This document shows, in pieces, positions 4,220 to 21,661 of a stretch of DNA of 55,525 nucleotides (the stretch's first letter is position 1; the number at the start of each line of letters is the position of its first letter). Origin of the DNA: Marinisporobacter sp. (GTDB lineage: Bacteria > Bacillota > Clostridia > Peptostreptococcales > Thermotaleaceae); contig JAOARP010000052.1 in assembly GCA_025210525.1 (NCBI GenBank), forward strand, positions 1-55,525, written 5' to 3'. A program made the position numbers and the translations under genes. A model generated the notes under the pieces. That model worked only from the letters and a program-made list of their open reading frames with translations, was not told where the DNA came from and searched no databases.

Positions 4220-4390
4220 ATGAGTTTATTAATATTTCAAGCAAACATAAATCTGTTACACAATTTCGTTAAAAAACTTGAAAGAGAAAGGATTCCTCTA
4301 TCTACACAAAAAATATTGATAAAAGCTTATGCAGACCATTTAAGGATGGAATTAACAGATGAAATGATTGAAGCGTTAATAAGTGATTAA
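4220..4390 (+). CDS. Small hypothetical protein, 56 aa
   Basis: This frame is ATG to TAA and is preceded by a good ribosome site, GGAGGA at 4208-4213, six bases before the ATG. The product (MSLLIFQANINLLHNFVK...) is predicted helical, with an N-terminal hydrophobic stretch and a charged second half containing KLERER and ELTDEM. I see no export signal, no cysteines and no family I recognise. The length and helical character recall small Firmicute regulators such as Spo0E-like phosphatases, but the Spo0E signature is absent, so I do not assign it. It stands alone between the SLH gene terminator and the dcuC-type operon. The ribosome site makes it likely to be real. Confidence 0.55.
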   Translation: MSLLIFQANINLLHNFVKKLERERIPLSTQKILIKAYADHLRMELTDEMIEALISD

Positions 4391-4750: not shown

Positions 4751-6124
4751 ATGTTAGGAATTTTATTTGCTATTATTGTTATTTTATTTGTAGGAAGATT
4801 AGTCCTGAAGGATTATAAACCTCAAGCTGTTTTAATGCTAGGTGGAATTGTTTTGATGGTATTGGCTGTTTCTTTTGGTCTTGGAAAGATCCTTGCAGAG
4901 GAGCAATCTACAGGACTTGTTTGGTTTGATATTTTTGAATTCATGAAAAATACTTTCAGTAAAACTTCAGCAGGTCTTGGGCTTACAATTATGGCTGTTG
5001 GAGGGTTTGCAAAATATATGAGTACAATTGGTGCAAGTCAAGCTTTAGTTAGATTGACAATCAAACCTCTTCGTAAGATGAATGCACCTTATGTAGTTTT
5101 AGCTGTTGGGTATATGGTAGGTCAATTATTAAATGTATTTATTCCTAGTGCGTCAGGACTTGGTGTATTACTAATGGTAACTATGTATCCAATCCTTATA
5201 AGCTTAGGGGTGAGTCCTTTATCAGCAACAGCGATGATTGGTACTACTGCTTGTCTGGATTTAGGACCAGCATCAGGAAATGCTAATCTTGCTGCAACAA
5301 CAGCAGGAATTGATGTATCTATATATTTTGTAAAATATCAGCTTCCAGTAGCAATTGCAACAATATTAACCATTTCTGGCTTACATTATTTTGTTCAAAA
5401 AAGATTTGATAAAAAGGCTGGATATGGATTAGGAAGTATTCAAAATACAGAAACAGCTGCTACTAAAGAAGATAAAGAAATAGATGTACCAAAAATTTAT
5501 GCGATTTTACCTATGATTCCATTAGTACTGATATTGATTTTTAGTAAACTGTTAGTAAAAAGTGTAAAGATGCATGTTGTAACAGCTATGCTTATTTCTC
5601 TTTTTATCAGTATGGTTTTTGAATACATAAGATATAAAGATGCAAAAAAAGTTTTCGCAAGTCTTCAACATTATTTTGATGGAATGGGAACACAATTTGC
5701 AAAGGTTGTAACACTTGTAGTTGCAGGTCAAACCTTTGCTCAAGGATTAAAGTCTATAGGGGCTATTGATACAGTGATTAAAGCTTCACAATCTGCTGGA
5801 TTTGGAGCAGGGATTATGATTATTATTATGACAGCAATTATTGCAGTATCAGCCATACTTATGGGATCAGGAAATGCGCCTTTCTTTGCTTTTGCTGCAT
5901 TAGCACCAGAAGTAGCAGGACAGTTATCTATTCCAGCTGTAATGATGCTTTTACCAATGCAGCTTGCAGCAGGTATTGCAAGAAGTGTATCTCCTATTAC
6001 TGGTGTAATTGTAGCAGTCTGTGGTATTTCAAATGTTTCTCCTGTTGAATTAGTAAAAAGAACAGCTATTCCAATGGCAGGAGCACTTCTTGTAACGGTA
6101 ATTGCAAATTTCATTTTATTCTAA
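4751..6124 (+). CDS. DcuC-family C4-dicarboxylate / organic-anion carrier
   Basis: An integral membrane carrier of 457 residues, the usual DcuC size, with about a dozen hydrophobic segments throughout and none of the domains of an ABC or PTS protein. Family marks include the polar-glycine stretch GSGNAPFFAFAALAPEVA in the second half and the repeated-half layout. E. coli DcuC exports succinate and exchanges C4-dicarboxylates. Here the next four genes are all amide or peptide-bond hydrolases, so I infer that the substrate is a carboxylated peptide-like or N-acyl compound rather than a plain dicarboxylate. RBS AAGGAGG lies just before the ATG. An intercistronic hairpin separates it from the hydrolase genes. 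Family: confident. Substrate: open. Confidence 0.8.
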   Translation: MLGILFAIIVILFVGRLVLKDYKPQAVLMLGGIVLMVLAVSFGLGKILAEEQSTGLVWFDIFEFMKNTFSKTSAGLGLTIMAVGGFAKYMSTIGASQALVRLTIKPLRKMNAPYVVLAVGYMVGQLLNVFIPSASGLGVLLMVTMYPILISLGVSPLSATAMIGTTACLDLGPASGNANLAATTAGIDVSIYFVKYQLPVAIATILTISGLHYFVQKRFDKKAGYGLGSIQNTETAATKEDKEIDVPKIYAILPMIPLVLILIFSKLLVKSVKMHVVTAMLISLFISMVFEYIRYKDAKKVFASLQHYFDGMGTQFAKVVTLVVAGQTFAQGLKSIGAIDTVIKASQSAGFGAGIMIIIMTAIIAVSAILMGSGNAPFFAFAALAPEVAGQLSIPAVMMLLPMQLAAGIARSVSPITGVIVAVCGISNVSPVELVKRTAIPMAGALLVTVIANFILF

Positions 6125-6132
6125 GAAAAAAA

Positions 6133-6156
6133 GAGGTAGGCACAAGTGTCTACCTC
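6133..6156 (+). promoter_or_regulatory. Intercistronic hairpin after the DcuC-type gene
   Basis: An 11-base inverted repeat (arms 6133-6143 and 6146-6156, one G-T pair) lies nine bases after the stop codon. No T run follows, so it is a poor terminator in the + direction. It is more likely an mRNA-stabilising or partial-stop element that sets carrier expression apart from the hydrolases. Confidence 0.5.
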
Positions 6157-6227
6157 AAATATATTCACAGAATGAGTAAAGGTGTCTTATAACAATTGTA
6201 TATAAGGAAAGAAATGGGGGAGTAAAA

Positions 6228-7373
6228 ATGAAAGCATATAAACTTGATTTGAAGGAATATTTAAAAAATTTAGAGGTTATGGTCAATCAAGATAGTGGTA
6301 GTAAGGACCCAGAAGGAATTAGCAAAATAGCCCTTTTCATGGGAGATTTATATACAAAGATGGAATGGATGGTAAAGGTACATAAATTTCATGAGGAGGC
6401 AGGTCCTTGTTTGGAAATAAGAAACAATCATGAGGATAGTATTGATTTATTATTGATCGGGCATATGGATACGGTTTTTCCTAAAGGAACAGCTAAAGAA
6501 AGACCCTTTAATATAAAAGGAGATTTAGCTTTTGGACCAGGGGTTGTAGATATGAAATCAGGTCTTTTATCTATGTATTATGCATTGAAATCATTAAATT
6601 TAAAGGACCTAGAAAAAGAACCATCTATTTGTGTAGCACTGAATAGTGATGAAGAGATTAGCTCAAGATTTTCTAGAAGCTGGATAGAGTCTCTTGCAAG
6701 AAAAAGTAAATATGCATTTGTATTAGAACCTGCAAGAAAAAATGGTGCTTTAGTAAAAGAAAGAAAAGGAATATTAAAATACAATATTGATTTTAAAGGG
6801 GTTGCAGCCCACGCTGGGGTCAATCCTCAAGATGGAATAAGTGCTATTACAGAGTTAGGGCATTGGATTATAGAGCTTAATAAATTAAATAATTTTGAAG
6901 CAGGAACTACTTTAAATGTAGGTGTTATTTCAGGTGGAAGTGCACCAAATGTTGTAGCAGAAAGGGCAAATGCTATTGTAGATATAAGATTTAAATCTGA
7001 AGATGAGTTAAGGAAGGTGGAAGAGACGGTAGAAAATTTAAGAAAAATACCAAAGCTAGAAGGTATGAAGGTAGATGTAACAAAACTTGGATTCCGTCCA
7101 CCACTTAATCCATCAGAAGAAACAAAAGCACTATATAGAATGGTAGATGGTATTGCGAATGATTTAGGGATTGATATAGAATGGGTAGCTACAGGAGGAG
7201 GATCAGATGCTAATTTTACAGCTGCTTTAGGGGTTCCGACTGTAGATGCTTTAGGACCTATAGGGGGAGGCGCCCATGGTGTTGATGAATATCTTGAAAT
7301 TCCTTCTATTGAACCTAGACTAGAGATGCTAAGAAGATTGATCATAAAGCTTTTAAATATAGAAGAGCGTTAA
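6228..7373 (+). CDS. M20-family zinc metallopeptidase, glutamate-carboxypeptidase (CPG2) type
   Basis: A cytosolic dizinc hydrolase of 381 residues, expected to cleave the C-terminal amino acid from peptides or N-acyl amino acids. Metal-site motifs appear in the family order: GHMDTVFP (His and Asp with the following catalytic Asp), PGVVDMKSG (bridging Asp), SDEEISS (catalytic Glu plus ligand Glu), a Glu in VLEPAR, and the late His in GGGAHGVDE. The middle of the protein carries the lid/dimerisation segment with AAHAGVNPQDG. No signal peptide is seen. RBS GGGGGAG precedes the ATG. It begins a close run with the next three genes (11, 5 and 1 bases apart), indicating one operon. Exact substrate cannot be read from the sequence. 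Confidence 0.85.
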   Translation: MKAYKLDLKEYLKNLEVMVNQDSGSKDPEGISKIALFMGDLYTKMEWMVKVHKFHEEAGPCLEIRNNHEDSIDLLLIGHMDTVFPKGTAKERPFNIKGDLAFGPGVVDMKSGLLSMYYALKSLNLKDLEKEPSICVALNSDEEISSRFSRSWIESLARKSKYAFVLEPARKNGALVKERKGILKYNIDFKGVAAHAGVNPQDGISAITELGHWIIELNKLNNFEAGTTLNVGVISGGSAPNVVAERANAIVDIRFKSEDELRKVEETVENLRKIPKLEGMKVDVTKLGFRPPLNPSEETKALYRMVDGIANDLGIDIEWVATGGGSDANFTAALGVPTVDALGPIGGGAHGVDEYLEIPSIEPRLEMLRRLIIKLLNIEER

Positions 7374-7384
7374 AGGAGTTTTTT

Positions 7385-8653
7385 ATGGAGGATCAAATTT
7401 TAGAAAGACTAATCACCTTAAGAAGAGAATTTCATCAATGTGCAGAAGTTGGATGGCTTGAGTATGAAACAACTATTAAGATCATTCATTATTTAAAATC
7501 ATGTGGGCTGAAGGTTTTGTATGGAAAAAGTATTCATAGTGAAAGAATGGGACTTCCTGATGAACAAACTATGAAGGAGCATAAAAAAAATGTAAACTGT
7601 TTAGAGGTTGATTTTGATACGGAAGAAATATTTATGGGATATACAGGGGCTGTAGGGATTTTAGATACAAAAAGACCAGGACCTACTGTAGCCCTTCGCT
7701 TTGATATTGATAGCAATGCCATAGAGGAAGATGAAAGTCAGGAGCATATTCCTTATAAAGAAAAATTTAGCTCTAAAAATAGGGGAATGATGCATGCTTG
7801 TGGTCATGATGGACATATTGCTATGGGATTAGAAATTGCAAAGAAAATTAGTGAAGAAAAGAATGAACTTTGTGGAAAAATTATGCTTATTTTTCAGCCA
7901 GCAGAAGAAGGGGTAAGAGGAGCTAAGAGCTTAGTCGGTGCAGAAATTCTAAAGGATGTAGACTATATTTTATCTGGACATATTGGATTTATGGCAAAGA
8001 AAAATCAAGTGATTTGTGGGATTGATGGATTTTTAGCTACTTCTAAATTGGATATTCATTATTATGGGAAAGCTTCTCATTCAGGAGCTTATCCAGAAAA
8101 AGGGAAAAATGCCTTATTAGCAGCAGCAAATTGTGCTATAAATTTACATACATTATGTCAATTTAGTCAAGGAATGAGTCGAATCAATGTGGGACTCCTT
8201 CATGCAGGAACAGGAAGAAATGTAGTACCAGCCGATGGAAAGCTTGAGGTGGAAACTCGTGGTGAAACCCAAGAAATCAATGACCAATTGTTAAAAAGAG
8301 TTGATGATGTTATAAGGGGAAGTGCAACCCTTTATGATGTTGATTATGAAGTAATACGTATGGGAAGTGCGCCAGCTTATACTTGTAAAGATAGAAAATT
8401 TGTTTCTCTTGTAGAAAATCTATTGAATAAATACGATTTTGAAGTGATGAATCATGGACATTTTGGTGCATCAGAGGATGTTACTTACATGTTTCATGAG
8501 GTGGAAAAAAATAATGGAAAAGGTATATATATGCTATTTGGAACAAATCTTAAAGCTCCACATCATCATAGTAGCTTTGATTTTGATGAAGATACGTTAA
8601 AAAATGGATATATTGTGTACAAAACGCTCATAGAACATTTTAATAGGAGGTGA
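7385..8653 (+). CDS. M20D-type amidohydrolase (hippurate / aminobenzoyl-glutamate hydrolase-like)
   Basis: A 422-residue member of the M20D group that includes HipO, IAA-amino-acid hydrolases and AbgA/AbgB. Visible metal-binding and catalytic motifs are MHACGHDGHIAMG, FQPAEEG (catalytic Glu pair) and a late HHHSSFDFDE stretch with the final His ligand. The N-terminal HQCAEVGWLEYET matches the family's conserved opening HxxPELxxxExxT. An insert near residues 50-80, before the DIDSNA segment, makes the protein somewhat longer than typical HipO. It hydrolyses an amide bond to an acyl or aryl group in this family; the substrate here is unknown. It follows the CPG2-like gene by 11 bases with AAAGGAG as RBS. 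Expected to be cytosolic. Confidence 0.82.
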   Translation: MEDQILERLITLRREFHQCAEVGWLEYETTIKIIHYLKSCGLKVLYGKSIHSERMGLPDEQTMKEHKKNVNCLEVDFDTEEIFMGYTGAVGILDTKRPGPTVALRFDIDSNAIEEDESQEHIPYKEKFSSKNRGMMHACGHDGHIAMGLEIAKKISEEKNELCGKIMLIFQPAEEGVRGAKSLVGAEILKDVDYILSGHIGFMAKKNQVICGIDGFLATSKLDIHYYGKASHSGAYPEKGKNALLAAANCAINLHTLCQFSQGMSRINVGLLHAGTGRNVVPADGKLEVETRGETQEINDQLLKRVDDVIRGSATLYDVDYEVIRMGSAPAYTCKDRKFVSLVENLLNKYDFEVMNHGHFGASEDVTYMFHEVEKNNGKGIYMLFGTNLKAPHHHSSFDFDEDTLKNGYIVYKTLIEHFNRR

Positions 8654-8658
8654 AAGGA

Positions 8659-10089
8659 ATGAAATATGATTTAGTATTAAAGGGAGGAATGGTTGTTGAT
8701 CCTCTTAATCATATAGAAGAGGTCTTAGATGTAGGGATTATAGATGGAAAGATAGAAAAAATAGGAGAAATAGGGGATAATCAAGGGAAAAAAGTATTAT
8801 ATGTGAATGACAATCTCATTCTACCAGGGCTTGTTGATTCCCATGTGCATGTTATAAAGGATGGTACAGGAAAAGCTGGATATAGAATGCTTGTAAGAGC
8901 TGGAGTAACGACAGCTTTTGATTTTAGAGGTCCTATTGATGCTTTTGAAGAAGAAATTATTCCCTATGGACAGGGGCTGAATGTTGCAGTACTTAATTGT
9001 ATTTTTAATGGTCGTGAAATGAGTCAATATGATGTACCAAGGGAAGAAATTTATAAGGAAGTAAGGGATAGCTTAGAAAAAGGTGCTATTGGTATAAAAA
9101 TAATGGGAGGTCATGCTCCCCTTACACCTAAGACAACAAAGAATGTTATTGAGATTACCAATGAAGAGGGAGGCTATATTGCCTTTCATGCAGGAACGTC
9201 TAAACATGGAAGCAATATAGAAGGAATGGAAGAAGCTGTACATCTTGCAAATGGGTTACCCCTTCATATAGCTCATATTAACTCTTATTGTAGAGGAATG
9301 ATTGAACACCCTCTAGGAGAGGCAAAGAGGGCTTTAACCCTTCTTAAAAATTCACCCAATATTGTATGTGAGTCTTACCTAGCTCCCTTTAATGGAACTA
9401 ATGGAGAACTAAATGAAGAAGGACTCCCTAAAAGTCATGTAACAAGAAACTGCTTGAAAAAACTTGGTTATCCTGTGGGAAAAGAAGGAATTAAAAAAGC
9501 TCTTTTAAATCATTGTGCAGCTGTCTATACGAAGGTAGGAGAAGAAAATCAATTGATTTGGGGAGAAGAAGGATATAATCTATGGGAAGACAAGGGTTCA
9601 AAGGTAAACATGAGCTTTTTGGTGAATTCTCCTGTTGTTGCAGCAGCTTGTGCCGCTGAAAAGGATGATAAAGGACATTTTGTAGTCAATGCACTGAGTA
9701 CAGATGGAGGAGCTATTCCTAGAAACTTTACTTTAAAATATGGATTATCTCTTGTAGCATTTGGAGCTTTGACCTTAAAGGAATTTGCGTGGAAATCTTC
9801 CTATGCACCAGCTCAGCTTATTGGACTGAAAGACAAAGGTCATTTTAGCAAAGGAGCTGATGCAGATATTGTTGTGGTAGATCTTCATAAAAAAGAAGCA
9901 AAGATGACGATTATAAATGGAAAAGTATGTATGATGGATGGGGAGTTAACCCATGAACCAGGAAAAATATTAACTACTGAAAAAGGAGAAAGTTATTTAA
10001 AAGAAAATCATGTTCCTTATGAAGTGATTGATTTAGAAAGAAGCGTTTATAGGAATGGAAAGGATTATCTTTATAGGAGAGGTGAATAG
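8659..10089 (+). CDS. Dihydroorotase/hydantoinase-like amidohydrolase
   Basis: A 476-residue amidohydrolase-superfamily TIM barrel. Recognisable sites are DSHVHV after LPG (HxH metal pair), GIKIMGGHA (candidate carboxylated Lys), FHAGTSKHG and HIAHINS (metal His residues), and STDGGAIP (catalytic Asp). The C-terminal KGADADIVVVD closes the small beta-sandwich domain, as in dihydroorotases and D-aminoacylases. I chose the ATG at 8659 because AGGAGG (8645-8650) sits eight bases before it; an upstream GTG at 8650 overlaps the ribosome site. It probably opens a cyclic amide or deacylates an amino acid. Given three M20 partners, I infer successive hydrolysis of one imported compound. Confidence 0.8.
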   Translation: MKYDLVLKGGMVVDPLNHIEEVLDVGIIDGKIEKIGEIGDNQGKKVLYVNDNLILPGLVDSHVHVIKDGTGKAGYRMLVRAGVTTAFDFRGPIDAFEEEIIPYGQGLNVAVLNCIFNGREMSQYDVPREEIYKEVRDSLEKGAIGIKIMGGHAPLTPKTTKNVIEITNEEGGYIAFHAGTSKHGSNIEGMEEAVHLANGLPLHIAHINSYCRGMIEHPLGEAKRALTLLKNSPNIVCESYLAPFNGTNGELNEEGLPKSHVTRNCLKKLGYPVGKEGIKKALLNHCAAVYTKVGEENQLIWGEEGYNLWEDKGSKVNMSFLVNSPVVAAACAAEKDDKGHFVVNALSTDGGAIPRNFTLKYGLSLVAFGALTLKEFAWKSSYAPAQLIGLKDKGHFSKGADADIVVVDLHKKEAKMTIINGKVCMMDGELTHEPGKILTTEKGESYLKENHVPYEVIDLERSVYRNGKDYLYRRGE

Positions 10090-11381: not shown

Positions 11382-11410
11382 TTGAAAAGGGAAATTTGTC
11401 GAGATATAAT
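11382..11410 (+). promoter_or_regulatory. Sigma-A promoter of the agr-like locus
   Basis: TTGAAA (11382-11387), a 17-base spacer and a perfect TATAAT (11405-11410) lie about 60 bases before the first gene of the locus and just after the previous operon's terminator. Confidence 0.75.
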
Positions 11411-11469
11411 AGAATTTGGATGTGGAAAAAAGTATAAAAAATAGATAAAATAAGAGAGAGGTGAAAAAT

Positions 11470-12294
11470 TTGGAATTGATGAGAATAAGGGATATTATAC
11501 TAGTTGGTTTCCCAGAAATATTTCTAGCAGTATTATTCGGATATAAATTATTAAAAAAAGAGTTTCAGTATAAAGCTGTTTTTCACATCATTTTCTCAAC
11601 GATCTTCATATTAGCTATAGCTGTAATTGTAAGAAATTATTTTAAAGATATTGTAACGATTACATTACTAAATACTATGAGCTACTTTATTGCTTATAAA
11701 ATCATTATGAAATTTAATTGTAGGCAAGCTTTATTTGCAGCGACAATTAGTATGTTTACTATTGTATTAGCTGAAAATGCAACGCTCCTTCCAACATTAT
11801 CAGCGTTAGAAAATCACAATTTCTTTGATACAAGAATTATATGGACCGTTCCTACAAGACTTCTACAATTAATGATTTTGTTATTTGTAATTCATCTAAA
11901 AATCAATTTTGAAAGAAGCCCCTTATTTAAAAATGATTGGAAATATTTATCTAAAGCACAACGAATTACAGTTACGTTATTTTTGTTTTTATCTATAGTA
12001 ACAATTGATTTTGCGTGCAATTATACAGAGGTAGTAATCAAAAACTATATCAATCATCAATTTATGTCTATAAATATGATTAAAATAATGATTGAAAATA
12101 TAATATTTATGTTTGTTGCATTAGTTCTATTGAGTAGAACGATTTATTATGAGGATTTTAAGGATTTTGCATTAAAAACACCTATGGAGCTTTTTAAGCT
12201 GATCCTAAAAAAAAGTAACAAAGAAGATATGAAGCAGTATAAAGTACTGCTTGATGAATATATGAATGAACGAAAGGAGGAGAAAAATAAATGA
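11470..12294 (+). CDS. AgrC-like polytopic membrane sensor lacking a histidine-kinase domain
   Basis: A 274-residue membrane protein with about seven hydrophobic segments followed by a roughly 55-residue basic/acidic cytoplasmic tail ending NERKEEKNK. The segment layout and its place immediately before an AgrD-like gene fit the sensor half of AgrC, the receptor for cyclic peptide pheromones. The DHp helix and HATPase domain that would make it a kinase are absent; the frame stops cleanly with no kinase remnant in any frame downstream. I prefer TTG 11470, because GAGGTG sits six bases before it; GTG 11461 would overlap that site. Its stop codon overlaps the start of the pheromone gene (ATGA). 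The receptor role is inferred from context and topology, not from a family motif. Confidence 0.6.
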   Translation: MELMRIRDIILVGFPEIFLAVLFGYKLLKKEFQYKAVFHIIFSTIFILAIAVIVRNYFKDIVTITLLNTMSYFIAYKIIMKFNCRQALFAATISMFTIVLAENATLLPTLSALENHNFFDTRIIWTVPTRLLQLMILLFVIHLKINFERSPLFKNDWKYLSKAQRITVTLFLFLSIVTIDFACNYTEVVIKNYINHQFMSINMIKIMIENIIFMFVALVLLSRTIYYEDFKDFALKTPMELFKLILKKSNKEDMKQYKVLLDEYMNERKEEKNK

Positions 12295-12410
12295 AAAAAT
12301 GGGTAGTCGTTTTATCTACAGCTATTGTTACATTGATTGCAGGTGTTGTAAATGCAGGTGCATGCTCAAGTGGAGCCTATGAAGATGAAATACCAAATTG
12401 CTTAAAATAG
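12291..12410 (+). CDS. agrD: AgrD-like cyclic (thio)lactone autoinducer precursor, 39 aa
   Basis: A 39-codon gene, ATG to TAG, overlapping the upstream gene by four bases and preceded by AAAGGAGGAG. The product has the three AgrD parts: a hydrophobic N-terminal helix (KKWVVVLSTAIVTLIAGVV), a short NAGA spacer, a single central Cys25, and an acidic tail YEDEIPNCLK. From the ring Cys to the tail Pro the spacing equals that of clostridial AgrD peptides of the CxxxxHQPEEP kind. By that register the mature ring would be the five residues CSSGA, closed between Cys25 and Ala29; this is unusually small and polar for a pheromone. The AgrB-like processing enzyme is two genes downstream. Family: confident from precursor design plus neighbourhood. 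Exact ring: inferred. Confidence 0.8.
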   Translation: MKKWVVVLSTAIVTLIAGVVNAGACSSGAYEDEIPNCLK

Positions 12411-12440
12411 ATAAGGATTTTCCTTATCTATTTAGTATTT
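12409..12440 (+). promoter_or_regulatory. Hairpin overlapping the agrD stop codon, possible partial terminator
   Basis: A perfect 9-bp stem (arms 12409-12417 and 12421-12429) with a TTT loop is followed by a T-rich stretch (TTTAGTATTTT). It is A/T-rich and so weak, which suits a leaky stop that would give more pheromone mRNA than regulator mRNA. Confidence 0.45.
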
Positions 12441-12460
12441 TCCTTGTGAGGAGGTGTCTA

Positions 12461-12997
12461 ATGAAAGTTTTTGTAATAGATGATTTTAAACCATATATTC
12501 ATTTTCTAAAAAGAAATATGCCTCACTTAATAAAAAGAGAGGATGTAAACTTTTACTATTTTTATGATTCAATAGAAGCTTTAAAAGCTATAAAGAAAGA
12601 AAAACCAAGTGTAATCATTACAGATATGGCAATGCCTAAAATGGATGGTTATGCATTCATTGAAAATATAAGAGAGGTGTATCATCCAGTTATTGTTGTA
12701 GTTAGTATACTTCGTAATATAAAAAACATTTCAGTAGATTTTAAAGTCCAAAAACCACTTGTAGATCTCTCTGAGTTTATAGATACGATTAACCAAGCTA
12801 TAGAACTTGCAAAAGAGCAAATGATTTATGAAACTTTAAATGATACAGATTGTTCATTAGAAAATGAAAAATTTTTAAATAGTGCCATATATACTCTTAC
12901 AGATACTATTTCGAAGGATGAAAAAAAAGATAGAGCAAAAGTTGAACAAAAGAATAGTAAAATAAAAAATTTTTTATTCAATTTATTTAAAGTTTAG
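12461..12997 (+). CDS. Receiver-only response regulator with C-terminal tail
   Basis: A 178-residue CheY-like protein. Receiver landmarks are the acidic pair Asp7-Asp8, the phospho-acceptor Asp55 in ITDMAMPKMDGY, Ser82 in VVVSI (the Thr/Ser switch) and Lys98 in QKPL. No DNA-binding domain follows; AgrA would carry a LytTR domain here. Instead there is a polar linker and a short, possibly amphipathic end, KIKNFLFNLFKV. The start is ATG 12461, with GAGGAGGTG before it; the frame extends upstream but overlaps agrD. It may act by protein-protein contact, possibly at the membrane through the tail. It lies 50 bases after agrD and 8 bases before agrB. The kinase that phosphorylates it is not in this window. 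Confidence 0.78.
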   Translation: MKVFVIDDFKPYIHFLKRNMPHLIKREDVNFYYFYDSIEALKAIKKEKPSVIITDMAMPKMDGYAFIENIREVYHPVIVVVSILRNIKNISVDFKVQKPLVDLSEFIDTINQAIELAKEQMIYETLNDTDCSLENEKFLNSAIYTLTDTISKDEKKDRAKVEQKNSKIKNFLFNLFKV

Positions 12998-13005
12998 GTG
13001 ATATT

Positions 13006-13572
13006 ATGGAATGGATGATTCAATATTTAGCAAAAAATGCACAAAATGAGCATTATACATTTGATGAAAGAAAACAGATTTTAAGATATGGATTTAAAAA
13101 ATTATTAACGAATTTATTCATATTGATGATTTTATTTACAATTTCTTTTTTTATGGATACCTTAAAGGTGATGTTTATTTTAATCATAACATTTGTGGTC
13201 TTAAGAATGAAATTTGGGGGATGGCATTCAGAGAGCAAAGGGGTTTGTATAACCCTAACTATTATTGTACCCATTGTATATGTTTTTATCATAAAAGCAT
13301 ATGATTTGCCCCTTATATTTACTTTTATTACTTATCTATTTGCTTACCTTAGTGCGTTTTTAAAGGGAGTAGTGGATAATCCTAAAAAAGAGCTGAGTAG
13401 TGATAAAAAATCAAGATTTAAGCTTCAAGGGATTATTATACTGACCTTTATAGGAGCTATACATATATTTGTACTAAGTAACCATTTAACAAACATAAGC
13501 GAAGGCATGACATTATCTATATTTACATCCTTTATTAATTTATATTTTAATCAAACAAAAACACAATGCTAA
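13006..13572 (+). CDS. agrB: AgrB-like pheromone-processing membrane protease
   Basis: A 188-residue integral membrane cysteine protease. The catalytic pair lies in RMKFGGWHSESKGVC, His74 and Cys81, with the H-x6-C spacing and preceding Arg-x3-Gly-Gly typical of AgrB. A DNPKKELSSDKKSR loop matches the family's DNP-K segment. Four to five hydrophobic segments flank these sites. AgrB cuts the C-terminal tail from AgrD and closes the (thio)lactone ring. The gene follows the receiver gene by eight bases, with AGGTGA as RBS. In staphylococci the order is agrB-D-C-A; here agrB is last, after the receiver. The length is close to family norm and nothing appears truncated. Confidence 0.9.
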   Translation: MEWMIQYLAKNAQNEHYTFDERKQILRYGFKKLLTNLFILMILFTISFFMDTLKVMFILIITFVVLRMKFGGWHSESKGVCITLTIIVPIVYVFIIKAYDLPLIFTFITYLFAYLSAFLKGVVDNPKKELSSDKKSRFKLQGIIILTFIGAIHIFVLSNHLTNISEGMTLSIFTSFINLYFNQTKTQC

Positions 13573-13618
13573 TCCTTTTGATCCAATAGGATTTTAGCGT
13601 AAGTGTTTCTTTTTTTTG
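13568..13618 (+). terminator. Probable terminator of the agr-like operon
   Basis: GCTAATCCT at 13568-13576 can pair with AGGATT-TT-AGC (about 13588-13598), leaving a two-base bulge. A run of eight T follows after a short gap (to about 13618). The fold is imperfect, so the call is moderate. Confidence 0.5.
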
Positions 13619-13780: not shown

Positions 13781-14254
13781 ATGGCAAAAACCATCTTTAC
13801 GGAAGAAAACTTTAAAAAGTTAGAAGAAGTTATTGTAAAAAATAAAGACAAGCAAGGAGCATTGATTCCTGTACTCAATGAGGCACAAAAAATATTTGGA
13901 TGTTTGCCTATAGAAGTGCAAAAGGAAATATCAAAAGGACTAAATATCCCACTAGCAGAAATCTATGGAGTTGTTACTTTTTATGCCCAATTTTCATTAG
14001 AACCAAAAGGGGAATATACCATTGGTGTATGTTTAGGAACTGCTTGTTATGTAAAGGGGTCACAAAAGGTTTTAGATCGAATTAAAGAAGAGCTAAATAT
14101 AGAAGTAGGAAAAACTTCTAAGGATGGTAAATTCACATTAGAAGCTACAAGATGTATTGGTGCCTGTGGATTGGCTCCTGTTATGACTATTAATGAAGAT
14201 GTTTATGGAAGATTAGTAGAGTCAGATATTCCTTCAATTCTTCAGAAATATTAA
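13781..14254 (+). CDS. hndA: NuoE-like [2Fe-2S] subunit of NAD(P)-linked [FeFe]-hydrogenase, copy 1
   Basis: A thioredoxin-like electron-transfer subunit of 157 residues, called HydC or HndA in different systems and homologous to complex I NuoE. The four [2Fe-2S] ligands are in GVCLGTACY and RCIGACG. The N-terminal helical bundle includes the conserved GCLP-x-VQ and GVVTFYAQF segments. It passes electrons between the flavin subunit and the rest of the complex. RBS AGGAGGGG precedes the ATG. It leads operon 1, and an almost identical protein leads operon 2 at 18935. An overlapping frame at 13900 is a shadow of this gene. Confidence 0.92.
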   Translation: MAKTIFTEENFKKLEEVIVKNKDKQGALIPVLNEAQKIFGCLPIEVQKEISKGLNIPLAEIYGVVTFYAQFSLEPKGEYTIGVCLGTACYVKGSQKVLDRIKEELNIEVGKTSKDGKFTLEATRCIGACGLAPVMTINEDVYGRLVESDIPSILQKY

Positions 14255-14276
14255 ACCTAAAAAGGGGGTAGAATGG

Positions 14277-14642
14277 ATGAAATCATTAGAGGAATTGGCA
14301 AAAATTCGTGAGGAAGCTGTGAAAAAGGTAGATATTAGAAGAAGCCGAGAAGGAACAAGAATCGTTGTAGGTATGGCAACTTGTGGAATTGCAGCGGGGG
14401 CAAGACCTGTTCTTACAGCCCTTTTAGAAGAAGTTAAGGTGAGAAATTTACAAGATGTAATGGTAAGTCAGACTGGATGCATAGGAGTCTGCAGACTTGA
14501 GCCCATTGTTGAAGTGTACAGACCCAAAGAAGAGAAAGTAACCTATGTGAAAATGACACCACAAAAAGCGAAAAAGATCATAGCAGAGCATATTGTCAAT
14601 GGAAAAGTTGTTCATGAGTACACTATTGGAGCAGAGGAGTAA
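14277..14642 (+). CDS. hndB: Thioredoxin-like [2Fe-2S] subunit (HndB type), copy 1
   Basis: A 121-residue ferredoxin-like subunit with one thioredoxin-type [2Fe-2S] site: Cys in MATCGIAAGARP, then GCIGVCRLEP. The gene order NuoE-like, small ferredoxin, NuoF-like, hydrogenase is that of hndABCD, supporting the HndB assignment. The start at 14277 (MKSLEELAK) is chosen over an out-of-frame ATG at 14273 because the operon 2 homologue begins MRSLEELAK. AAAGGGGG precedes it. In this family it relays electrons within the soluble complex; its exact position there is not evident from sequence. Confidence 0.85.
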   Translation: MKSLEELAKIREEAVKKVDIRRSREGTRIVVGMATCGIAAGARPVLTALLEEVKVRNLQDVMVSQTGCIGVCRLEPIVEVYRPKEEKVTYVKMTPQKAKKIIAEHIVNGKVVHEYTIGAEE

Positions 14643-14673
14643 AATTTAAAATAACGGACAAGGGGGTAAAGGA

Positions 14674-16470
14674 ATGGAATTTTACAGAGCACATGTTCTA
14701 ATCTGTGGGGGGACTGGATGTACTTCTTCTGGTTCACAAACATTGATAGAAACTTTTCATGAAGAGTTAGAAAAAAATCATTTAGAAAAGGAAGTAAAAA
14801 TCATAAAAACAGGATGCTTTGGACTTTGTGAAGCAGGACCTATTGTCATCGTTTATCCAGAGGGTGCTTTTTATAGTCATGTAAAGATAGAAGATGTAAA
14901 AAGGATTACAGAGGAGCATTTATTAAAGGGGAGAATCGTAAAGGACTTATTGTTTAAAGAAGCAGTACAAGAAGACCAAATCAGATCTATCAATGAAGTA
15001 GATTTTTATAAAAAGCAAAAAAGGGTAGCACTAAAAAATTGTGGTGTTATTAATCCTGAGGATATTAAAGAGTATATAGCCTTTGATGGCTATAAGGCTT
15101 TAGGAAAAGCACTAACAGAAATGACAAGGGAAGAGGTAATAGACTGTATTAAAAAATCAGGACTTAGGGGTCGTGGTGGTGGTGGATTCCCAACAGGAAT
15201 GAAGTGGGAATTTACTTATAAAGCAAAGGGAGATCAAAAATATGTAGCTTGTAATGCAGATGAAGGAGATCCAGGAGCCTTTATGGATCGATCTGTCCTT
15301 GAAGGAGATCCCCATGCAGTTATTGAAGCTATGGCTATTGCTGGATATGCAGTAGGAGCGAATCAAGGATATGTATATGTAAGAGCGGAATATCCTATTG
15401 CTGTACATAGATTACAAATTGCTATTGATCAAGCACGGGAATATGGACTCCTTGGCAAAAACATATTTGATAAAGGCTTTGATTTCGATGTAGAGATTAG
15501 ACTAGGTGCTGGAGCTTTTGTCTGTGGAGAGGAAACAGCCCTACTTAATTCCATAGAAGGAAAACGTGGAATGCCAAGACCAAGACCACCATTTCCTGCA
15601 AATGCAGGACTTTGGCAGAAGCCAACTCTATTAAATAATGTAGAAACGTATGCCAATATTCCTAAGATTATTTTAAATGGTGCGGATTGGTTCTCTGGTA
15701 TGGGAACAGAAAAGTCAAAGGGAACAAAGGTTTTTGCCTTAGGTGGAAAGATCAACAATACAGGGCTTGTAGAAATTCCTATGGGAACAACTCTAAGAGA
15801 AGTTATTTATGAAATCGGTGGAGGAATTCCGAATGGGAAGAAGTTTAAAGCCGTACAAACAGGAGGTCCATCAGGAGGCTGTATTACGAGTGAACATCTA
15901 GATACGCCTATTGATTATGATAATTTAATATCCCTTGGTTCTATGATGGGATCAGGTGGGATGATCGTTATGGATGAAGACAATTGTATGGTTGATATTG
16001 CAAGATTCTTTTTAGATTTTACAGTAGATGAGAGCTGTGGAAAGTGTCCACCTTGTAGGATTGGAACAAAGAGGATGCTAGAGATTTTGAATAAAATCAC
16101 ATCTGGTAAGGGCGAGATGGAAGATATTGACCGATTAGAGCAGCTAGCAAAAAATATCAAGGCTTCTGCTTTATGTGGATTAGGTCAGACTGCGCCAAAC
16201 CCAGTATTATCAACATTAAGATATTTTAGAGATGAATATGAGGCTCATGTAAAGGAAAAAAGATGTCCAGCAGGGGTATGTAGAGAGTTATTAGCATATA
16301 CCATTGATCCAGAGCTTTGTAAAAAATGTGGCATTTGTGCAAGTAAATGTCCTGAAAATTGTATAACGGGAGTAAAAGGAAAAGAAGTATTTAAAATAGA
16401 TCCAGCTAAGTGTATAAAATGTGGTGCTTGTATGGAAAGCTGTCCATTTAAGGCTATCAGCAAAAAGTAA
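14674..16470 (+). CDS. hndC: NuoF-like flavin/NAD(P)H-binding subunit, copy 1
   Basis: A 598-residue diaphorase subunit. Domains in order are a thioredoxin-like [2Fe-2S] module at the N-terminus (CGGTGCTSSG, then TGCFGLCEAGP), the NuoF FMN/NAD(H) core with GRGGGGFPTGMKW and CNADEGDPGAFMDR, the [4Fe-4S] site ESCGKCPPCRIGT, and two C-terminal ferredoxin clusters (CKKCGICASKCP and CIKCGACMESCP). It exchanges electrons with NAD(P)H via FMN and is the likely site of electron bifurcation with ferredoxin in this family. It follows hndB by 31 bases with AAGGGGG as RBS. A 173-base gap with a tandem repeat separates it from hndD, unlike operon 2, where the gap is 22 bases. Confidence 0.93.
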   Translation: MEFYRAHVLICGGTGCTSSGSQTLIETFHEELEKNHLEKEVKIIKTGCFGLCEAGPIVIVYPEGAFYSHVKIEDVKRITEEHLLKGRIVKDLLFKEAVQEDQIRSINEVDFYKKQKRVALKNCGVINPEDIKEYIAFDGYKALGKALTEMTREEVIDCIKKSGLRGRGGGGFPTGMKWEFTYKAKGDQKYVACNADEGDPGAFMDRSVLEGDPHAVIEAMAIAGYAVGANQGYVYVRAEYPIAVHRLQIAIDQAREYGLLGKNIFDKGFDFDVEIRLGAGAFVCGEETALLNSIEGKRGMPRPRPPFPANAGLWQKPTLLNNVETYANIPKIILNGADWFSGMGTEKSKGTKVFALGGKINNTGLVEIPMGTTLREVIYEIGGGIPNGKKFKAVQTGGPSGGCITSEHLDTPIDYDNLISLGSMMGSGGMIVMDEDNCMVDIARFFLDFTVDESCGKCPPCRIGTKRMLEILNKITSGKGEMEDIDRLEQLAKNIKASALCGLGQTAPNPVLSTLRYFRDEYEAHVKEKRCPAGVCRELLAYTIDPELCKKCGICASKCPENCITGVKGKEVFKIDPAKCIKCGACMESCPFKAISKK

Positions 16471-16472
16471 TG

Positions 16473-16621
16473 GAAATCAAAGATTTCTGTAACAATTAAG
16501 GAAACTCAGCTAATACTGAGTAAGGTGTTACGACGAAATCAAAGATTTCTGTAACAATCAAGGAAACTCAGCTAATGCTGAGTAAGGTGTTACGACGAAA
16601 TCAAAGATTTCTGTAACACCA
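16473..16621 (+). repeat. 62-bp structured tandem repeat between hndC and hndD of operon 1
   Basis: Two full 62-bp units (16473-16534, 16535-16596) and a partial third (16597-16621) begin two bases after the hndC stop. Each unit opens with the palindrome GAAATCAAAGATTTC. Each full unit then has an outer GTAACA/TGTTAC pair enclosing an ACTCAG/CTGAGT stem. The units differ at two positions or so. The element is absent between the same genes in operon 2. Confidence 0.9.
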
Positions 16622-16643
16622 TTAAGAGGGGAGTGAAAAAACT

Positions 16644-18440
16644 ATGGAAAAAGTTACTTTGACCATTGACAATATAAAGGTACAAGTGCCTAAAGACTAT
16701 ACGATTTTAGAAGCAGCAAAGACTGTTGGGATTGATATTCCTACCCTTTGCTATTTAAAAGGAATTAATGAGGTTGGAGCATGTAGAGTCTGTTTAGTTG
16801 AAATAGAAGGGGCAAGGGCCCTTCAAGCTTCCTGTGTACACCCTGTAGGTGAGGGAATGGTTGTAAAAACCAATTCTAAGAGAGTGAGGGATGCAAGAAA
16901 ATCAAATGTAGAACTCATTCTTTCTAATCATAATAGAGAATGTTTAACCTGCATTAGAAATAAAAACTGTGAGCTTCAATCTTTATCAGAAAGCTTAGGG
17001 ATTCGAGACATTCCTTTTGAAGGGGTTCAATCAGAAGGAACTATTGATAATTTTTCTGATTCCATTGTAAGAGATCCAAGCAAATGTATCCTGTGTGGTA
17101 GATGTGTGAGTGTTTGTAGAAATGTGCAAGAAATTGGGATTTTAGATTTTGCTAATAGAGGTTTTGAAACTCAAGTTATGCCAGCTTTTGAAAAGAGCAT
17201 GAAAGATGCACCTTGTACTTATTGTGGTCAGTGTATTGCTGTATGTCCAGTGGCTGCATTAAAAGAAAAGGATGATATAGAAAAAGTTTGGGATGCTTTA
17301 GATGATACAAATAAGCATGTAGTAGTGCAAACAGCTCCAGCAGTAAGAGCAGCTTTAGGAGAATGTTTTGACCTTCCTATTGGTACACGAGTGACAGGAA
17401 AAATGATAGCTTCCCTTAAGCGTCTTGGCTTTGATAAAGTATATGATACAAACTTTGCAGCAGATTTAACCATTATGGAGGAGGGGCATGAATTATTAGG
17501 TAGGATTCAAAAGGGTGGCACATTACCAATGATTACTTCTTGTTCACCGGGATGGATTCGTTATTGTGAATTTAACTATCCAGACTTTTTAGATAATCTA
17601 TCTACTTGCAAATCTCCTCATCAAATGATGGGCGCAATTATAAAATCTTATTATGCAGAAAAAAATAATATTGATCCATTGGACATATTTGTTGTATCCA
17701 TTATGCCTTGTACTTCTAAAAAAACAGAAATCACAAGACCTGAGATGAAGGGAACAGGATATAAAGATGTAGATGCAGTTCTTACTACAAGAGAATTAGG
17801 AAGAATGATTAAAGAAGCAAGAATCAAGTTTACAGAACTTGAAGATGAAAAGTTTGATCAAGATTTATTAGGAGAGTATACAGGAGCTGGTGTTATATTC
17901 GGTGCAACAGGAGGGGTAATGGAAGCGGCATTAAGAACTGTTGCAGATGTTTTAGAAGGAAAATCCTTAGAAGATATTGAGTATAAAGCTGTAAGAGGTG
18001 TTGAAGGAATCAAAGAAGCGGCTATTACTTTAGGAGGAATGGAAGTCAAAATCGCTGTTGCCCATGGGACTGCTAATGCAAAAAAAGTATTAGAGCTTGT
18101 TAGAAATGGCGAAAAAGAATATCATTTTATTGAAATTATGGCATGTCCAGGTGGCTGTGTTTGTGGTGGTGGGCAACCACAAGTAAATGCCAAGACTTTA
18201 ATGGAAGTAGACATAAAGAGTGAAAGAGCAAAAGTATTATATGAAGAAGATAAGAGTCTTCCTTTTAGAAAATCCCATGAAAATCCACAAATTAAGAAAT
18301 TATATGAAGATTTTCTAGAAAAACCAAATAGCCATAAGGCTCATGAATTATTACATACGCACTATCAAGCAAAAGAAAAATTTCCTACAACAATGGAAGA
18401 CTGCTGCATGGAAATTGCTGTTGGAAAAGAAAATAAATAG
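16644..18440 (+). CDS. hndD: [FeFe]-hydrogenase catalytic subunit, copy 1
   Basis: The 598-residue catalytic subunit that reduces protons or oxidises H2. In order it has an N-terminal [2Fe-2S] ferredoxin (CYLKGINEVGACRVC), the His/Cys cluster site HNRECLTCIRNKNC, two [4Fe-4S] motifs (CILCGRCVSVC and CTYCGQCIAVCP), then the H-cluster domain and small-subunit-like C-terminus. The H-cluster motifs are L1 TSCSPGW (Cys300, Ser301), L2 MPCTSKK (Cys356) and L3 MACPGGCVCGGGQP (Cys501, Cys505). L1 reads CS where the textbook motif is CC. RBS AGAGGGGAG precedes the ATG. The protein ends EIAVGKENK, without the Cys-rich tail seen in copy 2. A strong terminator closes the operon. Confidence 0.95.
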   Translation: MEKVTLTIDNIKVQVPKDYTILEAAKTVGIDIPTLCYLKGINEVGACRVCLVEIEGARALQASCVHPVGEGMVVKTNSKRVRDARKSNVELILSNHNRECLTCIRNKNCELQSLSESLGIRDIPFEGVQSEGTIDNFSDSIVRDPSKCILCGRCVSVCRNVQEIGILDFANRGFETQVMPAFEKSMKDAPCTYCGQCIAVCPVAALKEKDDIEKVWDALDDTNKHVVVQTAPAVRAALGECFDLPIGTRVTGKMIASLKRLGFDKVYDTNFAADLTIMEEGHELLGRIQKGGTLPMITSCSPGWIRYCEFNYPDFLDNLSTCKSPHQMMGAIIKSYYAEKNNIDPLDIFVVSIMPCTSKKTEITRPEMKGTGYKDVDAVLTTRELGRMIKEARIKFTELEDEKFDQDLLGEYTGAGVIFGATGGVMEAALRTVADVLEGKSLEDIEYKAVRGVEGIKEAAITLGGMEVKIAVAHGTANAKKVLELVRNGEKEYHFIEIMACPGGCVCGGGQPQVNAKTLMEVDIKSERAKVLYEEDKSLPFRKSHENPQIKKLYEDFLEKPNSHKAHELLHTHYQAKEKFPTTMEDCCMEIAVGKENK

Positions 18441-18478
18441 TAGATGAGAGGATTCTCATTAAAATAAAGGAAAGAGGA

Positions 18479-18520
18479 GCACTATGAAATCTTAATGGAT
18501 TTCATAGTGCTTATTTTTTT
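18479..18520 (+). terminator. Terminator of hydrogenase operon 1
   Basis: A perfect 13-bp stem (arms 18479-18491 and 18498-18510) with a six-base loop is followed by TTATTTTTTT. Confidence 0.92.
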
Positions 18521-18934
18521 GTAAAATTATTCCTTAGTACTGGTTAAAGCTTCTATTATTGATATAGATTTAACGAAGGGAATGAAAAATAAATTGAAAT
18601 TATATGAAAAATAAGATAAAATCAAAAAAATAAATGATTTTGTCATTTTTCATTCAAATATCAAAGATGAGAGAAATATATGTAAAGACTAGGTGAATAT
18701 GATTATCAATATCGCGAAATGAACAAGTTATTATCCTATTGTTCTGAATTTATAAATTTTAAAAAGGAATCTTGCAAAACTGGAAAAAAAAACTTCAAAA
18801 GATTGACAAAAAAATATCGAAAAATGATGAATTATTTGATATAATAAGTTTAATTTGACAAGAAAACAAAAAAATTTTAATACGGTCAAAAATGACAATT
18901 TTCAAATAAAAATAACCAAAAAGGGGGAGGTACT
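18521..18934. other. Gene-free stretch between the two hydrogenase operons
   Basis: I see no gene on either strand; the sequence is very A/T-rich with frequent stops. It contains the candidate promoter at 18817-18845 and two TTGACA hexamers (18803-18808 and 18855-18860) without good -10 partners. No operator-like palindrome stands out. Its length compared with the 160 bases or so upstream of operon 1 suggests a different regulatory region for each operon. Confidence 0.5.
18817..18845 (+). promoter_or_regulatory. Candidate promoter of hydrogenase operon 2
   Basis: TCGAAA (18817-18822), a 17-base spacer and a perfect TATAAT (18840-18845) lie about 90 bases before hndA copy 2. Confidence 0.45.
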
Positions 18935-19408
18935 ATGGCAAAGAATGTTTTTACTGAAGAAAACTTTGCAAAACTAGAAGAAATCATTCAAAAACACAAA
19001 GACACAAAAGGTGCTCTAATGCCTGTGCTAAATGATGCACAAAAATTATTTGGATGTCTTCCATTACAAGTACAAAAGAAAATTTCTAAGGGATTAAATA
19101 TTCCTATGGCAGAAATTTATGGAGTGGTTACGTTCTATGCACAATTTTCACTAGAGCCAAAGGGTGAATATACAATTGGTGTATGTTTAGGTACAGCATG
19201 TTATGTAAAGGGTGCACAAAAGATTATCGACAGAATCAAAAAAGAGATCAACGTAGAAGTTGGAAAAACATCAGCAGATGGCAAATATACACTAGAAGCA
19301 ACAAGATGTATTGGTGCTTGTGGATTGGCTCCAGTACTTACTGTAAATGAAGATGTATATGGTAGATTAGTTGAAGGCGATGTACCTGGTATTTTAGAAA
19401 AATATTAA
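18935..19408 (+). CDS. hndA: NuoE-like [2Fe-2S] subunit of NAD(P)-linked [FeFe]-hydrogenase, copy 2
   Basis: A 157-residue protein of the same length as copy 1 and closely similar along the whole chain, with substitutions mostly conservative and outside the cluster motifs GVCLGTACY and RCIGACG. No indel separates the two. This identifies a duplication rather than an unrelated NuoE. RBS AAGGGGGAGG precedes the ATG. It opens operon 2, whose start is 494 bases after the end of hndD copy 1. Both copies keep every Fe-S ligand, so both should be functional. Confidence 0.92.
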   Translation: MAKNVFTEENFAKLEEIIQKHKDTKGALMPVLNDAQKLFGCLPLQVQKKISKGLNIPMAEIYGVVTFYAQFSLEPKGEYTIGVCLGTACYVKGAQKIIDRIKKEINVEVGKTSADGKYTLEATRCIGACGLAPVLTVNEDVYGRLVEGDVPGILEKY

Positions 19409-19466
19409 GATAAAAGGTAGAAAAGGAAAAGGTTATCAAAGATCCTAAACGAGGAGGGAACCCTTA

Positions 19467-19832
19467 ATGAGATCATTAGAGGAATTAGCAAAAATTCGTG
19501 AAGAAGCGATAAAGAAAGTAGATATAAGGTGTGAGAGAGAAGGTACAAGAGTGGTTGTAGGGATGGCTACTTGTGGAATTTCAGCAGGAGCAAGACCTGT
19601 ACTTATGGCACTACTTGAAGAAGTAAAGGTTAGAAATTTAACAGAGGTTACAGTGAGTCAAACAGGATGTATTGGGGTTTGTAGACTTGAGCCAATTGTT
19701 GAAGTGTACAAACCAGGGGAAGAAAAGGTAACTTATGTAGAAATGACACCGGAAAAAGCGAAAAAAGTAATCGCTGAGCATATTGTTAATGGAAAAGTAG
19801 TAGACGAATATACTATTGGAGCGGCTAAGTAG
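19467..19832 (+). CDS. hndB: Thioredoxin-like [2Fe-2S] subunit (HndB type), copy 2
   Basis: A 121-residue homologue of the copy 1 protein at 14277, equal in length, with the cluster cysteines in MATCGISAGARP and GCIGVCRLEP. An extra Cys (VDIRCER) replaces Arg-Ser of copy 1 near residue 22. It follows hndA copy 2 after 58 bases, with GAGGAGGG before the ATG. Role as for copy 1: electron relay in the soluble hydrogenase complex. Confidence 0.85.
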   Translation: MRSLEELAKIREEAIKKVDIRCEREGTRVVVGMATCGISAGARPVLMALLEEVKVRNLTEVTVSQTGCIGVCRLEPIVEVYKPGEEKVTYVEMTPEKAKKVIAEHIVNGKVVDEYTIGAAK

Positions 19833-19864
19833 ACTGTTAAATTATTTTGTGAGGAGGTTAAAGC

Positions 19865-21661
19865 ATGGAATTTTATAGATCGCATGTCCTAATCTGTGGA
19901 GGTACAGGATGTACATCTTCAGGTTCTCAAACATTGATAGAAGCTTTTGATGAGCATTTAGAGAAAAACAATTTAACAAATGAGGTAAAATTAGTTAAAA
20001 CCGGATGTTTCGGATTATGTGAAGCAGGTCCTATTGTTATTGTTTATCCAGAAGGTGCTTTTTACAGCCATGTAAAGGTAGAGGATGTAAAAAGAATTAC
20101 AGAAGAACATCTTTTAAAGGGAAGAATCGTAAAAGATTTATTATTCAAAGAAGCTATTGAAGAGGATCAGGTTCGTTCTATTAATGAAGTTGATTTTTAT
20201 AAAAAGCAAAAGAGAGTTGCTCTTAGAAATTGTGGGGTAATTAATCCAGAAGATATTAAGGAATATATTGCTTTTGATGGATATAAAGCATTAGGAAAAG
20301 CATTAACAGAAATGACAAGAGAAGAAGTAATCGATTGTATTAAAAAATCAGGACTACGTGGTCGTGGTGGCGGTGGTTTCCCAACAGGACTTAAGTGGGA
20401 ATTTGCTTATAAGTCACAGGATGATCAAAAGTATGTAGCTTGTAATGCAGATGAAGGAGATCCAGGTGCATTCATGGATAGATCTGTTCTTGAAGGAGAT
20501 CCACATGCATTAGTAGAAGCTATGGCTATTGCTGCATATGCAGTAGGGGCGAATCAAGGATATGTATATGTAAGAGCAGAGTATCCAATCGCTGTAAATA
20601 GACTTCAAATCGCTATTGATCAAGCAAGAGAATATGGACTTTTAGGAAAAGACATATTCGGAACGAGTTTTGAGTTTGATTTAGAAATAAGACTAGGTGC
20701 AGGAGCTTTCGTATGTGGAGAAGAAACAGCACTACTTAATTCTATAGAAGGTAAGCGTGGTATGCCAAGACCAAGACCTCCTTTCCCAGCAGTAAAAGGT
20801 CTATGGGGAAAACCAACTATGTTAAATAACGTGGAAACTTATGCAAATGTTCCTCAAATCATCCTAAAGGGTGCTGATTGGTTTGCAAGTATGGGAACAG
20901 AAAAATCAAAAGGAACAAAGGTATTTGCATTAGGTGGAAAGATTAATAATACAGGACTTTTAGAAATTCCTATGGGAACAACTCTAAGAGAAGTAATCTA
21001 TGAAATCGGTGGAGGTATTCCAAACGGTAAGAAGTTTAAAGCGGTACAAACAGGTGGACCATCTGGTGGATGTATTACTGCTGATTACTTAGACACACCA
21101 ATTGATTATGATAACTTAATTGCTCTAGGATCTATGATGGGTTCTGGTGGTATGATCGTTATGGATGAAGACAATTGTATGGTTGACATTGCTAGATTCT
21201 TCTTAGACTTTACAGTAGATGAGTCTTGCGGTAAATGTCCTCCTTGTAGAATCGGAACAAAGAGAATGTTAGAGATTTTAGATAAGATTACAGAAGGTAA
21301 GGGAGAAATGGAAGATCTTGATAGACTTGAAAGATTGGCTAAAAACATTAAGGCTTCGGCTTTATGTGGACTTGGTCAAACTGCTCCAAACCCAGTACTT
21401 TCAACACTAAAATACTTTAGACATGAGTATGAGGCTCACGTAAAGGATAAGACATGTCCAGCTGGCGTATGTCAAGAATTATTATCTTATACAGTAGACC
21501 CAGACCTTTGTAAAAAATGTGGTATTTGTGCAAACAAATGTCCTGCTAATTGTATAGAAGGGGTAAAAGGAAAAGAAGTTTACAAAATAGATAAAGATAA
21601 GTGTATCAAGTGTGGTGCTTGTATAGAAGCTTGTCCATTTAAAGCAATCAGCAAGAAGTAA
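19865..21661 (+). CDS. hndC: NuoF-like flavin/NAD(P)H-binding subunit, copy 2
   Basis: A 598-residue diaphorase subunit, the same length as copy 1 and aligning without gaps by eye. All cofactor motifs are retained: CGGTGCTSSG and TGCFGLCEAGP, GRGGGGFPTGLKW, CNADEGDPGAFMDR, ESCGKCPPCRIGT and the two ferredoxin motifs CKKCGICANKCP and CIKCGACIEACP. Differences from copy 1 cluster in surface-like stretches, such as the segment after KWEF and around GTSFEFDLEI. RBS GAGGAGG precedes the ATG. Only 22 bases separate it from hndD copy 2, with no repeat element. Confidence 0.93.
   Translation: MEFYRSHVLICGGTGCTSSGSQTLIEAFDEHLEKNNLTNEVKLVKTGCFGLCEAGPIVIVYPEGAFYSHVKVEDVKRITEEHLLKGRIVKDLLFKEAIEEDQVRSINEVDFYKKQKRVALRNCGVINPEDIKEYIAFDGYKALGKALTEMTREEVIDCIKKSGLRGRGGGGFPTGLKWEFAYKSQDDQKYVACNADEGDPGAFMDRSVLEGDPHALVEAMAIAAYAVGANQGYVYVRAEYPIAVNRLQIAIDQAREYGLLGKDIFGTSFEFDLEIRLGAGAFVCGEETALLNSIEGKRGMPRPRPPFPAVKGLWGKPTMLNNVETYANVPQIILKGADWFASMGTEKSKGTKVFALGGKINNTGLLEIPMGTTLREVIYEIGGGIPNGKKFKAVQTGGPSGGCITADYLDTPIDYDNLIALGSMMGSGGMIVMDEDNCMVDIARFFLDFTVDESCGKCPPCRIGTKRMLEILDKITEGKGEMEDLDRLERLAKNIKASALCGLGQTAPNPVLSTLKYFRHEYEAHVKDKTCPAGVCQELLSYTVDPDLCKKCGICANKCPANCIEGVKGKEVYKIDKDKCIKCGACIEACPFKAISKK

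Follow-up and report, generated by a model that had tools for sequence, protein, structure and literature searches.

Departures from the classical agrBDCA arrangement have been described before. Kinase-less AgrC-like proteins were noted once, in phages: alongside AgrB and AgrD, the phages Davies, Emery and Abouo (named there as Paenibacillus phages) encode membrane proteins described, in the accessible part of the report, as possible AgrC homologues without HATPase_C (PMC3901668). In C. difficile, agr1 consists of two genes only, agrB1D1, in the available text of one account (PMC8534292); in that of another, its peptide promotes sporulation by a route from AgrD1 that is unknown, and Spo0F is a receiver-only protein (PMC11210211). 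Here we describe a further departure, a four-gene operon at 11470-13572 of a Marinisporobacter sp. contig (JAOARP010000052.1, positions 1-55,525; this whole stretch of 55,525 nucleotides is the window). On one strand it encodes R, a predicted seven-transmembrane (TM) sensor of AgrC type without a kinase, followed by agrD, a receiver gene and agrB. We tentatively favour, at just short of an even call, the reading that this operon is a complete, selected, kinase-less and Spo0A-coupled agr variant, in which pheromone and Spo0A are joined in a loop. In the open-licence literature, the titles and abstract openings gave no account of a receptor that lacks a kinase and has a partner of Spo0A type.

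The four genes lie where an earlier note, made from the sequence alone, had placed them, as gene calls and family matches confirm. Below, G denotes genomes (G000 is the window's own), L denotes loci, which are stretches of DNA, and f32 is a family.

11470 (TTG start) or 11461 (GTG start) to 12294, forward strand: R, seven-TM AgrC-type sensor without kinase, 274 or 277 residues
12136-12291, forward: cytoplasmic tail of R, residues 223-274, with the pattern P..L......S..E...Y; possible His-less DHp-like hairpin
12291-12410, forward: AgrD-type peptide precursor (TIGR04223), 39 residues, C-terminal part ACSSGAYEDEIPNCLK
12405-12433, forward: terminator-like hairpin in the gap between agrD and the receiver gene, kept in G003
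12461-12997, forward: receiver protein, 178 residues, its ATG at 12461 preceded by GAGGAGG; 62-residue tail without a known domain
13006-13572, forward: AgrB peptidase (PF04647)
11382-11410, forward: promoter-like site TTGAAA-17-TATAAT, matching 11 of 12 consensus bases
11397-11403, forward: Spo0A-box-like heptamer TGTCGAG between the -35 and -10 elements, one base off the core
11397-13616, forward: extent of the cassette common to G003; no cassette at the corresponding junction in G001

The peptide-making half is intact, as had been claimed: AgrB matches PF04647 with 92.7 bits, above the curated cut-off, and AgrD passes TIGR04223 narrowly (19.7 bits against a cut-off of 19). Among the AgrD proteins of five further R loci, those of L014 and L027 also pass this model, those of L030 and L031 fall below its cut-off and that of L028 gives no match.

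The sensor R and split AgrC systems

Neither Pfam nor NCBIfam gave a family match for R at E up to 10; the DHp and ATPase domains of AgrC were likewise not found in it by Pfam. Six or seven hydrophobic segments are present in each of the eight members, and the C-terminus lies about 53 residues past TM7. Its identity comes instead from remote comparison. Residues 1-148 match membrane proteins of 150-190 residues (hhalign 98.0%, E 2.6e-13), and the R profile spans the TM segments of a fused kinase protein in G895 at E 2e-6 per genome, with a large composition bias. Comparisons with the small sensors and with GHKL-type kinases both place R as the sensor part of an AgrC, while that with the single-chain AgrC of L092 was not significant. 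Because R aligns both to the sensor subunits of split AgrC systems and to the TM region of a fused GHKL kinase, it looks, on sequence comparison, like an AgrC-type sensor that ends where the kinase would begin. The polytopic, kinase-less sensor proposed at the outset thus stands. The converse concern, that the 274-residue protein might be an unrelated transporter, does not, since this AgrC-type sensor is retained together with AgrD and, for the most part, with AgrB; its homology to agr sensor subunits and AgrC-type kinases leads us to reject a role as a transporter.

Twelve loci of small sensors were read. A GHKL-type kinase directly adjoins the sensor in 8 of the 12, AgrB (partly recognised by eye) lies within the stretch in seven, and the four adjoining kinases that were measured have two TM segments each; judged by their sequences, such a small sensor and its two-TM kinase are a split AgrC. 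Three split systems are present in the host genome (L011 6107-8294, L012 5850-7817 and L073 138-1099, the last ending at a contig end). In G895 and G778 the sensor and kinase parts are fused in one 456-residue protein; SPOB_a and HATPase domains were identified in that of G895, which was the one scanned, and neither agrB nor agrD was seen in its stretch.

Some small sensors occur in other settings. L010 of the same genome (G000:C18:743000-756000, at 4147-9368) has a small sensor, AgrB and AgrD followed by a membrane HD-GYP-like protein, assigned by eye; it is one of the four small-sensor loci without an adjoining GHKL kinase, and is preceded, at a distance of about 0.6 kb, by the gene for a larger histidine kinase. 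Stand-alone small agr-type sensors are found near tsaE- and tsaB-like genes in L075 (4396), L076 (4744) and L077 (4464), stretches in which neither a GHKL kinase nor AgrB or AgrD was recognised.

The tail pattern is common to most R proteins; L027 deviates. Its P, S and Y are kept in five aligned sequences with 24-26% identity to the R of the window. The tail aligns with the DHp hairpin in the same register, not significantly by hhalign and at 4/300 shuffles by local profile score, a suggestion, and only that, of a hairpin that has lost its histidine. In L029, R (4310-5494) carries about 120 additional C-terminal residues of no known kind; the idea that these are a dead ATPase was unsupported, there being no similarity to the GHKL ATPase domain. 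Sequence search returned no credible solved structure related to R.

Spo0A-related partners

The protein encoded between agrD and agrB matches Response_reg with 46.6 bits in Pfam, and the signature residues D7, D8, D55, S82 and K98 (numbered from the ATG at 12461) are all present, so that it appears capable of phosphorylation. Neither an output domain, LytTR included, nor a Spo0A_C match was found in it with Pfam, and alignment of its tail to Spo0A_C was no better than shuffles. Its best NCBIfam match is Spo0A, by a margin of 1 bit for the window and 14 bits for G012, and in a tree of 22 sequences it groups with Spo0A plus one other regulator (support 0.86).

Elsewhere the partner takes other forms. 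In G012 the receiver is followed by about 100 further residues. The f32 partners are receiver-less, and the predicted fold of one of them (L078 6001-6399, the one modelled) best matches the Spo0A DNA-binding domain in Foldseek, with chains as ranked through VIA-align. No receiver was recognised in the partners of L027, L028, L030 and L031. A spo0A paralogue (L027 3454-4197) lies immediately upstream of R in G289; second Spo0A paralogues also occur in G223 and G349 (L071 9521-10327 and L072 5291-6046). Taken together, sequence and predicted structure make the partners of R look Spo0A-related. The claim of a receiver with no output therefore holds for the window but fails as a general rule: given the extra residues in G012 and the predicted fold in f32, the output half appears altered, not simply absent, in the operon type overall.

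Homology of the partners to Spo0A_C was also sought by sequence. Nothing significant emerged with hhalign, and a ranking test that was at first positive was discarded because most of its alignments were off register or within the receiver. Full-length alignment to Spo0A_C supported a 102-residue protein of G289 and, weakly, the partners of L028 and L030 (3/150 and 1/150 shuffles); L014, L031, L029 and the tails of the window and G003 proteins were unsupported. As a profile, the f32 partners aligned to Spo0A_C at 2/300 shuffles. Compared directly with that partner profile, the 102-residue protein gave no match (150/300 shuffles).

Conservation and the promoter region

In G003, of the same genus, the same four genes are present with 85% DNA identity over 11397-13616. 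The ratio of nonsynonymous to synonymous substitution rates (dN/dS) between the two is 0.21 for R, 0.23 for AgrD, 0.20 for the receiver protein and 0.24 for AgrB, values of about 0.2 that indicate purifying selection on the four-gene operon. Within the genes, the R tail stands at 0.28 and the receiver domain at 0.12; with 0.56, the 62-residue tail of the receiver protein is far less constrained than its receiver.

The distribution is patchy. R had no match in G001 or G002, also of this genus; in G001 the genes on either side (ygeY-like and hydrogenase-like, named by eye) adjoin each other without the cassette, whereas in G003 the cassette adjoins a gene read as hprK. Counting that of the window, full-length R occurs in 3 of 118 relatives, in 4 of 391 genomes of the class (six loci), in 3 of 393 of the order and in 1 of 398 of the phylum. 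The samples overlap, and the counts are lower bounds because in the last three at most six candidates were scored per genome. Within f32, R is present in three of six genomes, at five loci. Matches in G095, G064 and G120 were discarded for internal stop codons, and three loci from the phylum search were read (L098, L103 and L104). No R match was seen among phage and plasmid records at E up to 0.01; in viral contigs the R of the window was without a match and that of G012 matched its own locus only, and in genome contigs the R of the window yielded no confirmed match.

Eight R loci in six genomes were read, along with the more distant L032. The order R, agrD, partner, agrB, which the earlier note had proposed seeking in other Clostridia, is complete in five of the eight (window, L013, L014, L027 and L028), in diverged members of the class. 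L030 and L031 have R, agrD and partner, with agrB not in the stretch; L029 has agrB, R and agrD, then a 261-residue protein of no known kind. L032, from G349, reads agrB, R, agrD with no partner seen, and was omitted from the R profile as too distant. In G012, of another genus, R, agrD, receiver and agrB are retained at 27% identity for R, 27% for the receiver and 21% for AgrB; genes for a holin and an endolysin are some 3 kb away from this locus, whose contig is listed as viral in IMG/VR.

Of the evidence offered for a single transcript, part survives. R and agrD overlap (ATGA), but this is the sole overlap in the operon: 50 bases containing the hairpin separate agrD from the receiver gene, and 8 bases separate the latter from agrB. 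The proposed shared promoter at 11382-11410 fits the consensus better than any other of the 21 sites in the stretch, yet their number does not exceed that given by shuffling (17.4 expected), and in G003 the -10 element is kept and the -35 is not. G003 has an exact TGTCGAA, at position -73, at the same place as the TGTCGAG of the window, and the DNA match between the two begins at this heptamer (11397). The Spo0A-box core TGTCGA lies upstream in 6 of 7 R-first operons, against 4 of 143 control genes; in the promoter of the f32 partner of L078 the site reads TGTCGAA. Exact cores also precede two split-kinase agr operons (that of L096 at 89 bases before agrB, that of L094 at 157 bases before the sensor gene), and Spo0A control of agr operons may therefore, to judge from these motifs, extend beyond the R type.

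Downstream of the operon, 13781-23468 holds two tandem copies of a four-gene cluster that by eye is hydrogenase- or NADH-dehydrogenase-like; a probe from its start gave two strong matches each in G001 and G003 and one in G002.

A possible mechanism, its rivals and known systems

Under the reading we favour, AgrB would process AgrD to a cyclic thiolactone peptide, as is suggested by their families, and the peptide would be bound by R, the kinase-less sensor of AgrC type. In place of phosphorylating a LytTR regulator, the short tail of R would act on a Spo0A-related partner, holding or releasing it. That partner would be a Spo0A-like receiver without a DNA-binding domain in this genome; at other R loci it would be either a DNA-binding domain of Spo0A type on its own or a receiver joined to an additional domain. 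A DNA-binding partner would act at Spo0A boxes, while the receiver of the window might modulate Spo0A, either competing for Spo0A kinases or pairing with Spo0A. As the promoter of the operon carries a Spo0A-like box, reading of the operon from it would close the loop between pheromone and Spo0A. Phosphotransfer of the usual kind from receptor to partner cannot hold in general, since no kinase domain is recognised in R and a number of the partners lack a receiver. That R signals through direct contact with its partner is plausible. The stronger form of this idea, that an AgrC-type receptor directly controls a Spo0A-type DNA-binding protein by contact and without phosphotransfer, giving a self-contained quorum input to the sporulation switch whose variants use either half of Spo0A, is possible but doubtful.

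The main rival, which we consider rather unlikely, is that R relays its signal to a histidine kinase from another locus, be it an orphan or the kinase protein of a split agr system, which then phosphorylates the receiver in the ordinary way. The phosphorylation residues are kept, the split systems of this genome do pair a sensor subunit with a separate kinase protein, and orphan kinases are, in the accessible text of one source, thought to phosphorylate clostridial Spo0A (PMC11210211). The search for a kinase elsewhere, also put forward earlier, cuts both ways: HATPase_c_5 matches 37 times in the genome (E up to 0.01), but of the four SPOB_a kinases found there three adjoin their own sensor subunit (one being cut by a contig end), the fourth being a 539-residue protein on C7. 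R, moreover, is unlike a missing subunit because it already holds both TM parts that split systems divide between two proteins, and the receiver-less partners of L027, L028, L030 and L031 would offer such a kinase no recognised receiver, though L027 has its spo0A paralogue upstream.

It is improbable that R and the receiver are dominant-negative remnants, the one absorbing or blocking the peptides of intact agr systems and the other draining phosphate from Spo0A kinases. The lack of both kinase and output domains, the three further AgrB loci in the genome and the selection maintaining sensor and receiver would suit such a brake, but the operon would make its own peptide, agrB and agrD are likewise under selection, and a mere sink would not require a unit that is met again, in large part, in other families. 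That the operon is a functionless remnant whose kinase and DNA-binding halves degenerated fits its patchy distribution and weakly constrained receiver-protein tail, but is very improbable given the selection values of all four genes, an architecture retained at 21-27% identity and the shared tail pattern, hairpin and -10 region.

The kinase-less, Spo0A-coupled reading thus keeps the sensor of the earlier interpretation and adds the Spo0A link that it had overlooked. As 2.2 kb of DNA combines peptide production, a receptor without kinase, a protein akin to Spo0A and a promoter with a Spo0A-box-like site, a direct route from agr peptide to Spo0A becomes testable; if correct, it would mean that an AgrC-type sensor is able to signal without its kinase.

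Compared with the classical agr system, the operon shares the AgrB and AgrD families and a homologue of AgrC-type sensors, but has neither kinase domain nor LytTR regulator and instead a Spo0A-related partner. Among the phages, Davies was the one compared: its gp44 and gp45 (219 and 222 residues; L116) lack the long tail of R, gave no match to the R profile at E up to 10 and weak ones to the small-sensor profile (E 0.01 and 0.04), and no Spo0A-type partner is annotated in that stretch. The receiver of the window appears to resemble those of Spo0A and, like Spo0F, stands as a receiver only; unlike Spo0A, it lacks the DNA-binding domain and is linked to an agr operon. The agr1 locus of C. difficile likewise has agr peptide genes without agrC or agrA, but lacks R and a partner gene; for agrBD-only loci, a seven-TM sensor, roughly 275 residues long and carrying a P..L...S..E...Y tail, provides a search image for the missing receptors.
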